Part shown: positions 51,630-54,192 of the stretch, in pieces
Numbering within the stretch: position 1 is the first letter of the stretch
How the letters are laid out: each line of letters begins with the position of its first letter
Origin: Granulosicoccus antarcticus IMCC3135
GTDB taxonomy: Bacteria > Pseudomonadota > Gammaproteobacteria > Granulosicoccales > Granulosicoccaceae
Reading direction: 5' to 3'
Length of the DNA: 64,000 nt
NCBI RefSeq assembly: GCF_002215215.1
Contig: NZ_CP018632.1
Location: forward strand, 310,501-374,500
Translations under genes and position numbers: made by a program
The notes under the pieces: model-generated
The model's database searches: none
What the model saw: the letters and a program-made list of their open reading frames with translations, nothing else
Told to the model about the DNA's origin: nothing

Positions 51630-52214
51630 CTACTTCACGAAGCCCAGTGCTGGGAGCGTTTCACAAAACTGCCATTCGCCATTCTTGAGTGGCCATACTT
51701 CGTAGGGCCCGATGTGTGTGCGGATCAGGCGCAAGGTGGGGAAGTTCACAGCGGCTGTCATGCGTCGCACTTGCCGATTACGGCCTTCCTGCAGGCTGAT
51801 CTGTAGCCAGCTAGTCGGTATGTTCTGACGAATCCGGATGGGCGGATCGCGCGGCCACAACACCTCGGGTGGATCCACCTGGCTGACTTGCACCGCACGC
51901 GCGGGTCCATCCTTGAGTTGCACACCTTTGCGCAACTGCTCGATGGCTCTGGCGTCAATCTGGCCATCCACTTGCACCAGGTATTGTTTGGTCAGCTTGA
52001 ATCGTGGGTGGCTGATGCGCTGCTGCAAGGCCCCATCGTTAGTCAGAAGCAACAAGCCTTCGCTGTCTCTGTCCAGTCGTCCGGCAGCATAGAAGCCTGG
52101 AGCTTCAATGTAATCGGCTAATGTCTTGCGTTTGTCAGCATCGGTGAACTGGCACAGAACGCCAAACGGCTTGTTGAACAGCACAATGCGGTGCTGCGCG
52201 CTTGCCTCGCTCAC
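51630..52214 (-). CDS. rluE: 23S rRNA pseudouridine synthase RluE-like
   Basis: RsuA-family pseudouridine synthase of 194 residues, without an S4 domain. [17 protein letters not shown] carries the catalytic Asp48. [12 protein letters not shown] near the N-terminus and [14 protein letters not shown] near 140-155 match RluE, which modifies U2457 of 23S rRNA in E. coli. The start overlaps the exonuclease stop by 4 bases. Confidence 0.9.
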
Positions 52215-53107
52215 TTGTCAGCCAGGCGACGGGCAGTGCGTTCAGCCAGATCGTCCATCAGTCCTGCATCCACCAGAGCGTTGAACAGTAGCCTTTCGTC
52301 TCGGGGTGGACGTTCGCAGGTGGTGAGATCCTGCGGCAGACGATCATCGTTGATCAGACCCGTTAATGAACGTGCCAGGGCGATTGTGGATTTGTGCTCA
52401 TACAAAAGCCTGCTGACTCGTGGAGCGCCTCGAAAGCGCATCATCGAAACCTCTCCCAGGTTTGCCAGCAAGTTCTCCAGATCATTCCATTTGTTGAGCA
52501 GGCGAGCTGCCGTTGTCGGGCCAACGCCCGGTACGCCGGGAATGTTGTCGCTCTTGTCGCCACTGAGTGCCAGCCAGTCCGGGATCTGTTCCGGTCTGAT
52601 CTTGAATCGTTTGTGTACTTCGTCATAAGTGGCGATGCCGCGACGCCCGTAATCCCAGTACAGGTCATTTTCTGTGATGAACTGGGCAAGATCCTTATCC
52701 CCCGTCACGATGGTCACAGGCAGATCCTGGCGGCTGGCCATGCCGGCAAAGTGACCAATGATATCGTCGGCTTCAACCTGGTCGCTGCCCTGCGTCATGA
52801 TGCCCAGTGCCTGTGCTACCTGCTTGCATCGGGCAAACTGGGGGACCAGATCCTGAGGTGCTGGTGGGCGATCGGCCTTGTAGGCGGGGTACAGCTGGTT
52901 GCGAATGCCTTTTCTGAAACATTCGTCGAAGGCGCACAGCATCATCGTCGGGCGATGGTTTTCGATAATCTGGCAGAGCGTCTCGGTAAAGCCCTGCACA
53001 GCATTGTCGGGCTCGCCGAAGCGATTACGCGTATCTGCCGGCAACCCTTGCCAGCCGCGAAAAACATAGATACTGGAGTCCACCAGAAAGAGAGCTTGAT
53101 GGATCAC
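52211..53107 (-). CDS. 5'-3' exonuclease (XNI/ExoIX-like)
   Basis: Free-standing 5'-nuclease related to the N-terminal domain of DNA polymerase I. 298 residues. Metal-binding acidic residues are visible in [45 protein letters not shown] and [12 protein letters not shown] helix-hairpin-helix follows ([20 protein letters not shown]). E. coli XNI (251 residues) is shorter, so this could be a distinct paralogue. Overlaps by 4 bases the genes on both sides, giving nuclease-exonuclease-rluE in one operon. Confidence 0.88.
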
Positions 53108-53904
53108 GAGTTATTGGTCAGTTCGAGGTTGCTGGGATGATTAAGAGTGAGGCTCTGCTTGCCTGCTGATGTTCCAAGCCAGCCGCGAACCTGAATTTCC
53201 TGGCCAATCAGCTTGCTCAGCTCTGATGCTGCAAGCTCGCCGCTTTTCGGCCAGAGGGAACCAAGTTTGACTTGCAAGCCATTGTCTAGAATCAGTTTTG
53301 TCTTGCCTTTGTGGCCCTGAATTTCCTGCACGTGGCCGGTGGCTACATGAAAGCCGCGTTCCCGGCCTGTCAGCGGGCTGCTGTTCAGCTGCCAGCTACC
53401 AGGGGATTGCCAGATTCCCAGACCTGCATCGCGAGCTTGTAGCTCTAGCGTGTGCAAGGTATCGGCGCAGCGGGTGTTGCGGCCTACGGCTACCGCCAGT
53501 CCCATACCTGTGGCGATCAGTGTCTGTGCAGCATCCTGCCCATCCGCACGTCTCAGGTGAGCTAACAGGCGGCCATAACGGTCGTGTGCATCCTTGCCTG
53601 AGATGATCAGCGCCTGAGTGTTCTCGAGAAAATTCTCCAGAGCCTCTTTGGCATGCTGAGCCATGAGCCGGTCTTGTTTGTCCGGTGAGTTCAATTCGAG
53701 TGTGTTGAGTCCGATCAGTCGTACACGACGTTGGTCGTCAAGAACAACAGTGTCGCCGTCAGTGACTCGGGCGATGGTGACCTTTTCTGTCTGTGCCTGT
53801 TCAAGGCAAGAGGTCAGTTGTGGCAGGTTGTCTGCCGCTGCCAAAGAACAGATGAATAACAAGCTTACGCAAAAAAGGCATCTCAATGGATGCCTTTTTC
53901 GCAC
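53104..53904 (-). CDS. Staphylococcal-nuclease-like (thermonuclease family) secreted nuclease
   Basis: An SNase-fold protein of about 266 residues with an N-terminal signal peptide. The core reads RVTDGDTVVLDDQRRVRLIGLNT, then KDAHDRYGRLLAHL, with the expected Arg/Glu/Arg catalytic set. A C-terminal OB-like region with NNGLQVKLGS-type strands follows. The start is uncertain. The frame is open to 53991 but that would overlap rpmE; GTG 53904 gives a normal signal peptide (about residues 1-24). A strong terminator-like hairpin (53872-53899) overlaps codons 2-11 of this version; TTG 53886 in its loop is another option. Function as an exported nuclease is inferred. Confidence 0.82.
   Translation of the reverse strand: MRKRHPLRCLFCVSLLFICSLAAADNLPQLTSCLEQAQTEKVTIARVTDGDTVVLDDQRRVRLIGLNTLELNSPDKQDRLMAQHAKEALENFLENTQALIISGKDAHDRYGRLLAHLRRADGQDAAQTLIATGMGLAVAVGRNTRCADTLHTLELQARDAGLGIWQSPGSWQLNSSPLTGRERGFHVATGHVQEIQGHKGKTKLILDNGLQVKLGSLWPKSGELAASELSKLIGQEIQVRGWLGTSAGKQSLTLNHPSNLELTNNS
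53872..53899 (-). terminator. Rho-independent terminator of rpmE, inside the nuclease 5' region
   Basis: AAAAAGGCATC (53872-53882) and GATGCCTTTTT (53889-53899) form a perfect 11-bp stem with a 6-base loop; on the minus strand it ends in a run of six T. It lies 57 bases after the rpmE stop on the minus strand and overlaps the first codons of the downstream nuclease gene. Confidence 0.85.
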
Positions 53905-53956
53905 TCTGTCGGCGAGCACCACCGTCTGTGGGCCGCCGATATTAGCCGACGTCCGA

Positions 53957-54160
53957 TTACTTGGCGCCGTAGCGTCGACGGAACTTGTCAACCTGACCTG
54001 CAGTATCCATTACTTTTTGCTTACCCGTGTAGAACGGATGGCAAGACGAACACACTTCGATACCCAGATCGCGTCCAGATGTGGAACCCGTTTCAAACGT
54101 GTTTCCGCAACTGCAAGTGACTGTGATTTGCTTGTATTCGGGATGGATTTCCGGTTTCAT
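53957..54160 (-). CDS. rpmE: 50S ribosomal protein L31 (zinc-binding type)
   Basis: 67-residue large-subunit protein. It keeps the zinc-binding cysteines, CSCGNTF near 16-22 and [10 protein letters not shown] near 37-46, so it is the C+ form used when zinc is plentiful. A strong Shine-Dalgarno (GGGAGG) precedes ATG 54160. A promoter is visible upstream and a strong terminator follows. Confidence 0.97.
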
Positions 54161-54192
54161 AGCAACCTCCCGGTTATAAAAAATGGAACCGG

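Follow-up and report, generated by a model that had tools for sequence, protein, structure and literature searches.

The putative rpmE terminator overlaps the predicted signal-peptide codons of a following SNase-family nuclease gene in Granulosicoccus antarcticus and across its class

The window analyzed here is a stretch of 64,000 nucleotides from Granulosicoccus antarcticus IMCC3135 (NZ_CP018632.1, positions 310,501 to 374,500), and all coordinates below count from its first nucleotide. Its minus strand carries four genes in the order rpmE, nuc, xni-like and rluE-like.

53957..54160, minus strand: rpmE, ribosomal protein bL31, 67 aa (PF01197, E=7.9e-34; TIGR00105 and PRK00019 above cut-off)
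53104..53922, minus strand: nuc, SNase/thermonuclease-family protein (PF00565, E=3.6e-12; the profile of alignment A1 matches staphylococcal nuclease chains)
52211..53107, minus strand: xni-like 5'-3' exonuclease (PF02739/PF01367 above cut-off; NCBIfam Xni PRK09482 below its cut-off)
51630..52214, minus strand: rluE-like 23S rRNA pseudouridine synthase (PF00849; best NCBIfam match RluE PRK11394, at 230 bits under its cut-off of 284)

The 4-nt overlaps between nuc and xni (53104-53107) and between xni and rluE (52211-52214) suggest translational coupling along the operon, and rpmE, nuc, xni and rluE were found together in all 21 of the 21 loci of the genus in which rpmE stands beside nuc. An inverted repeat, CCGGTT..AACCGG, lies at 54170-54192, immediately 5' of the rpmE ribosome-binding site, and might be a leader element of L31 autoregulation.

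The nuc product scored 47.1 bits against PF00565, for which the curated cut-off is 21, and thus shares its domain family with staphylococcal nuclease (thermonuclease). D49-G-D51, R62, E70 and R112 were invariant in the 21 nuc sequences of alignment A1. The position that we take to be that of the Ca-binding Asp40 of staphylococcal nuclease is Asn67 in the window protein and is nearly invariant as Asn across the 21 sequences, so that the nuclease activity may differ from that of the staphylococcal enzyme. Unlike staphylococcal nuclease, the nuc product has about 100 extra C-terminal residues, among them positions that are invariant in its group, and its gene sits behind rpmE with a putative terminator within the signal peptide.

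The junction between rpmE and nuc contains the following features.

53909..53939, minus strand: first hairpin, between rpmE and the terminator, with the likely nuc start codon in its 3' arm (RNA fold; similar hairpins seen by eye in relatives)
53920..53922, minus strand: most likely nuc start codon, GTG, 34 nt past the rpmE stop, opposite the ATG of loci L004, L007 and L009
53869..53902, minus strand: hairpin of 14 pairs resembling an rpmE intrinsic terminator, also nuc codons RKRHPLRCLFC (inverted repeat, RNA folding, translation, comparison)
53871..53876, minus strand: U6 tract of the putative terminator, also the start of the predicted hydrophobic core of the signal peptide (inverted repeat and translation)
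53833..53922, minus strand: predicted nuc signal-peptide codons, to ..SLAAA (crude signal-peptide test; cleavage site by eye)

The Watson-Crick core of the second of these hairpins consists of 11 pairs (53899-53889 with 53882-53872) around a six-base loop (53888-53883), and RNA folding lengthened it to 14 pairs (53902-53869, one of them G-U). It thus has the G+C-rich stem-loop and U tract that characterize an intrinsic terminator. A segment of 101 nt, which takes in the first hairpin as well, folded at -42.5 kcal/mol, compared with a mean of -29.2 for shuffles (z -3.8). The hairpin at 53902-53869 was not listed by a simple terminator scan of the window, presumably because the scan counts T only past the stem and the T here pair with the A tract. 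The nuc frame is open across the whole hairpin, which corresponds to about codons 7-18, ahead of the nuclease domain. An earlier note on this DNA had described an 11-bp stem and T tract after rpmE that overlap the first nuc codons, and the inverted repeat, the fold and the open frame confirm that description.

The same note had placed the best nuc start at GTG 53904 and another at TTG 53886. Both codons exist, but the first of them is probably not the start, as GTG 53922 appears likelier: in an alignment with four near relatives, V-V-L-A-D from GTG 53922 aligned with M-V-L-A-D of L007 and M-V-L-T-D of L009. Like GTG 53904, GTG 53922 lies upstream of the hairpin. The loop TTG was missing from the starts listed for L003, L006 and L008, and in L006 and L008 the sole standard start listed was one GTG upstream of the hairpin.

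The peptide encoded by the hairpin is followed by VSLLFICSLAAA; its charged n-region is encoded by the A tract and left arm, and its hydrophobic core begins with the U tract. A positive n-region, a hydrophobic core and small residues at the cleavage site, as expected of a Sec signal peptide, are all present in the window. Our crude signal-peptide test, which like the hairpin score and the Shine-Dalgarno (SD) test is a home-made heuristic, was passed from 53922, 53904 and 53886 and failed from TTG 53862, the only in-frame start after the hairpin. Since TTG 53886 lies inside the loop and passes, there is room for an RNA that begins within the hairpin.

In relatives (the L004, L007 and L009 junctions) the loop of the first hairpin reads CACACGGA and contains the nuc ATG; we take this loop to resemble a CsrA site. 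In the window, however, the copy of this hairpin lacks GGA. Two sub-threshold matches to Rfam were judged to be due to chance.

The recurrence of this arrangement was examined in the genus, in named relatives and in the class. Relatives were found with the profile of alignment A1, a first protein query having given no match. In the genus, nuc was matched in 23 of 27 genomes; 21 of these loci carry the four genes, and the other two matches were weak, with no rpmE in the stretch. Eight of the 21 loci do not fit the overlap pattern: by eye, the hairpin lies outside the nuc frame in L010 and L017, and an ATG with a plausible signal peptide stands behind the hairpin in L011, L012, L015, L018, L019 and L022. 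Among the best 80 of 378 named relatives, which include Pseudomonas, Stutzerimonas, Halopseudomonas, Marinobacterium, Microbulbifer, Thiodiazotropha and Thiogranum, rpmE was directly upstream of nuc on the same strand in 80 of 80, and a hairpin with a T tract lay inside the nuc frame in 75, outside it in 4 and was not detected in 1. The layout of A tract, G+C-rich stem and T tract is repeated across loci with differing sequences; the element of Pseudomonas L084, for example, reads ATGAAAAAGGCGCCCCTGGTGGGCGCCTTTTTTATG, i.e. MKKAPLVGAFFM. One locus titled Halobacteria archaeon (L083, JABDRC010000354.1) carries the rpmE-nuc pair and is probably a misbinned or mislabelled contig. The plasmid collection yielded 7 records, all Gram-positive and at less than 60% identity.

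For the class, 369 genomes were drawn evenly, and nuc was present at E <= 1e-15 in 156. We examined 146 of the 156 nuc loci (G362, G173, G209 and G306 were omitted as partial or weak, and six more were not among the matches listed); 132 had rpmE and nuc in the stretch, 13 had no rpmE and 1 had no nuc. A hairpin with a T tract was found in the nuc frame at 111 of the 132 junctions, outside it at 8 and not at all at 13. By these sequence counts the putative terminator/signal-peptide overlap recurs across a large bacterial class and is not local.

We then compared the hairpins with what the encoded peptide would bring about by itself, using recodings in which the peptide was fixed and codons were drawn randomly by usage. 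Among the 111 real segments, 107 had a hairpin score of at least 32, compared with 585 of the 11,000 synonymous recodings (of 110 segments, window excluded). With 200 recodings per segment, none reached the observed score in 90 of 111 segments, and 1% or fewer did so in 106 of 111; in L257 the figure was 49%. For the window segment, the observed score was attained by 0 of 5000 recodings. Mononucleotide shuffles of whole junctions reached a score of 32 in 10 of 2640 cases. The hairpin is not explained by the encoded peptide alone.

Residues encoded opposite one another in the stem covary. In the pattern [K/R..]-A-x..y-A-[F/L/P], x = Leu is accompanied by y = Ser in 23 cases and by y = Gly in 14, and x = Pro/Ser is accompanied by y = Gly in 59 cases and by y = Ser in 3. 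This count covers all of the 209 distinct junctions, with or without a hairpin, and gives a Fisher p of 4.6e-10 before any correction for ancestry. A tree of 90 rows requires no fewer than 22 changes for one trait and 17 for the other, but its supported branches hold just one independent pair, so that shared ancestry may account for the covariation.

Translation initiation at nuc was compared with that at rpmE on 169 junctions, the same set as used for the signal-peptide test, after omission of the 14 of 183 distinct in-frame junctions that lacked any start within 45 nt of the hairpin. An SD-like 4-mer preceded 14 of 169 nuc starts, compared with 136 of 165 rpmE starts, and 5-mers were found in 3 versus 45. 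From -20 to +40, folding energy had a median of -18.6 kcal/mol at nuc starts and of -7.6 at rpmE starts. In 120 of 169 junctions the nuc start comes at most 25 nt past the rpmE stop, and in 18 it overlaps that stop. These results suggest that nuc initiation is weak, and ribosomes leaving rpmE probably feed it. At the 111 in-frame class junctions, the chosen starts were ATG in 62, GTG in 30 and TTG in 13, with none within 60 nt in 6, and the median distance from start to hairpin was 20 nt. The nuc frames of L065, L106 and L016/L039 have no ATG, GTG or TTG close upstream of the hairpin and may use a rarer start codon such as ATT.

Several other explanations of the overlap have to be weighed. Because the A and T tracts of a terminator code for Lys and Phe, any gene behind a terminator might appear to begin with such a signal peptide, and the occurrence of all three U-tract phases in the 111 in-frame junctions (61, 34 and 13; 3 not assigned) is what would be expected if a terminator were signal-peptide-like in every frame. 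However, among other same-strand gene pairs in the named loci, a hairpin was found in 7 of 139 and inside the downstream frame in 3 of 139, compared with 78 and 74 of 80 for named rpmE-nuc pairs and 114 and 107 of 132 for those of the class (score >=32; the search in neighbor pairs reached 50 codons into the gene, a rule slightly unlike that for nuc). Furthermore, where rpmE is followed by other genes, 8 of 24 hairpins lie inside a frame, versus 107 of 114 for nuc, and in most cases the frame is needed for the start codon and signal peptide. We therefore regard chance as a scarcely credible account, and the coding property of the tracts may account for the origin of the overlap but not for its persistence. 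It is also conceivable that the nuclease starts downstream of the hairpin, from its own promoter or an internal start, and that the open frame is incidental. A start past the hairpin that leaves room for a signal peptide, i.e., at least 33 codons ahead of the catalytic motif, is present at 26 of the 132 junctions, all 26 among the 111 in-frame ones (the window is counted here through TTG 53862, although that codon fails the signal-peptide test), and six loci of the genus have, by eye, the plausible ATG behind the hairpin noted above. Against this, 37 of the 111 in-frame junctions have no ATG, GTG or TTG at or after the hairpin, scanned to 15 codons before the catalytic motif, and 48 have starts only within the hairpin or fewer than 33 codons ahead of the motif, so that 85 have no start past the hairpin with room for a signal peptide. 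Of the starts before the hairpin, 153 of 169 passed the signal-peptide test, whereas 9 of 99 first starts beyond the T tract did so, as did 28 of 210 control ORFs; L006 and L008 offer only their upstream GTG. A downstream start is thus very unlikely to be the rule. In the window, we did not find the case that the earlier note had set against itself, a separate promoter together with a start downstream of 53870. The sole later start is the TTG that fails the test; the promoter scan listed no promoter before rpmE either and is hence uninformative on a separate nuc promoter.

A further explanation, which we consider improbable but less so than the previous two, is that the hairpin does not terminate but forms part of a constitutive rpmE-nuc mRNA, in which it lowers nuc translation or marks a processing or 3'-protection site. 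The strong folding over the nuc start would agree with this, and so would its distribution behind rpmE: such a hairpin was found in 24 of 56 loci with rpmE and no nuc (6 of 19 in the family of the window organism and 18 of 37 elsewhere; from 58 loci, two being too short, with some genomes giving a second copy, as G117 does with two near-identical contigs), compared with 114 of 132 with nuc, so that it is not simply a constant need of rpmE. On the other hand, the layout of A tract, G+C-rich stem and T tract is repeated in different sequences, a purely translational role needs no U tract, and no such hairpin was seen where nuc had no rpmE detected next to it (0 of 31). These cases comprise 0 of 11 within the class (13 loci, two short contigs dropped) and, in other classes of the phylum, 0 of 20 (20 of 53 matched genomes taken, including L348, in which about 170 nt upstream are available and rpmE may still lie beside nuc). 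By eye, these 20 nuc genes encode ordinary-looking signal peptides. The overlap is restricted to nuc genes beside rpmE. Altogether, the 0 of 31 and the 24 of 56 indicate that the hairpin goes with the end of rpmE and is kept more strictly when nuc follows; it may be of as much use to nuc as to rpmE. In the family of the window organism, loci without nuc have an xni-like gene in the same stretch in 17 of 19 cases (not L307 and L310), and the xni-like gene beside rpmE in L281-L299 points to an rpmE-xni pair that either lost nuc or received it by insertion.

We favor, with a probability of about 0.7, the interpretation that the intrinsic terminator of rpmE doubles as signal-peptide codons of nuc, so that read-through RNA would be the sole source of the exported SNase-family nuclease. 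From the arrangement and its comparison we infer termination, read-through and export. One DNA segment would have two roles, as the intrinsic terminator of rpmE and as the 5' codons of the nuc signal peptide (n-region and start of the hydrophobic core), with the A tract and left arm giving Lys/Arg and the right arm and U tract giving Leu/Phe. Most polymerases from the rpmE promoter would halt at the U tract, giving a short rpmE mRNA, and a minority would read through to make nuc mRNA (nuc-xni-rluE in the window). If the hairpin terminates, read-through would be obligatory, because the nuc start lies upstream of it and a downstream promoter could not yield the exported form. The translation of nuc would be low and tied to rpmE, with no SD, a start near the rpmE stop and a strong hairpin on the first codons, and nuclease would be produced in small amounts that scale with L31 expression. 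An rpmE mRNA that had been terminated would contain the nuc start but no stop codon for it, and selection against strong initiation could follow. The earlier proposals that nuc expression must pass the rpmE terminator and that the hairpin hampers initiation are thus supported by the anatomy and the comparison. Its further proposal, that the exonuclease and rluE are tied to L31 transcription as well, may hold, but xni may have an internal promoter.

A more speculative extension, which we consider possible but doubtful, is a self-licensing switch. A ribosome finishing rpmE would re-initiate at the SD-less nuc start and block the stem, and the polymerase would proceed, so that nuclease RNA would be made only when translation closely trails transcription through rpmE. 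Conversely, stray translation of nuc on a terminated rpmE mRNA, which would lack the nuc stop codon, would need rescue, and this would explain the missing SD. The rpmE-nuc pair would then act as a conserved sensor that links an exported nuclease to ribosome traffic.

The position of the hairpin, between the presumed rpmE promoter and the nuc gene body, fits that of a transcription attenuator of the downstream gene with presumed read-through. In the ampC attenuator/frd terminator of E. coli, the terminator of an upstream gene attenuates the next gene from an untranslated leader behind the promoter; the rpmE-nuc hairpin, unlike this one, lies within coding sequence, past the start codon. To our knowledge, there is no evidence that L31 binds the rpmE-nuc hairpin. 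According to the portion of the article available, the rplJL operon of B. subtilis is a ribosomal-protein operon with an attenuator that acts by transcription attenuation (PMC4538822); putative attenuation in a ribosomal-protein transcript would be shared with rpmE, whereas the rplJL attenuator, as described in that portion, acts in the leader and is controlled by a ribosomal protein. A terminator or stem-loop within coding sequence is shared with brfA and arfA. Excerpts describe a terminator in the coding sequence of Bacillus brfA, synonymous disruption of which let a downstream reporter be expressed (PMC8012679), and a stem-loop in that of E. coli arfA, for which synonymous stem-loop changes were used (PMC10070815). 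By the same excerpts, the element is situated toward the end of the gene to which it belongs, and the truncated product of brfA is the active one. In contrast, the rpmE-nuc hairpin lies in the first codons of the following gene, would belong to the preceding gene and codes for a predicted signal peptide; it is not a hairpin ahead of the stop codon of its own gene that leaves a functional truncated product. A terminator inside coding sequence is already known from brfA. Among the matches listed in open-licence PMC text, we found no description of an rpmE terminator in signal-peptide codons. In Pseudomonas taiwanensis, a putative nuclease and maeB were placed behind rpmE, and RT-qPCR of the nuclease is named in the excerpt of that article (PMC12337976). 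Two further articles, as far as their excerpts go, do not bear on the overlap, one on the E. coli L31 leader (PMC9825181) and the other a Term-seq method (PMC12207403).

Terminators and signal peptides are usually treated apart. At the rpmE-nuc junction, across much of a class, a single segment seems to answer to both constraints, and it is read in three different phases. It offers an apparent case of protein residues following RNA pairing and an anatomy that would make read-through obligatory for a gene. As an annotation warning, terminators can fall inside real genes, and start codons behind rpmE are easily misplaced. The rpmE-nuc junction may also be a natural system for testing whether translation overrides an intrinsic terminator.
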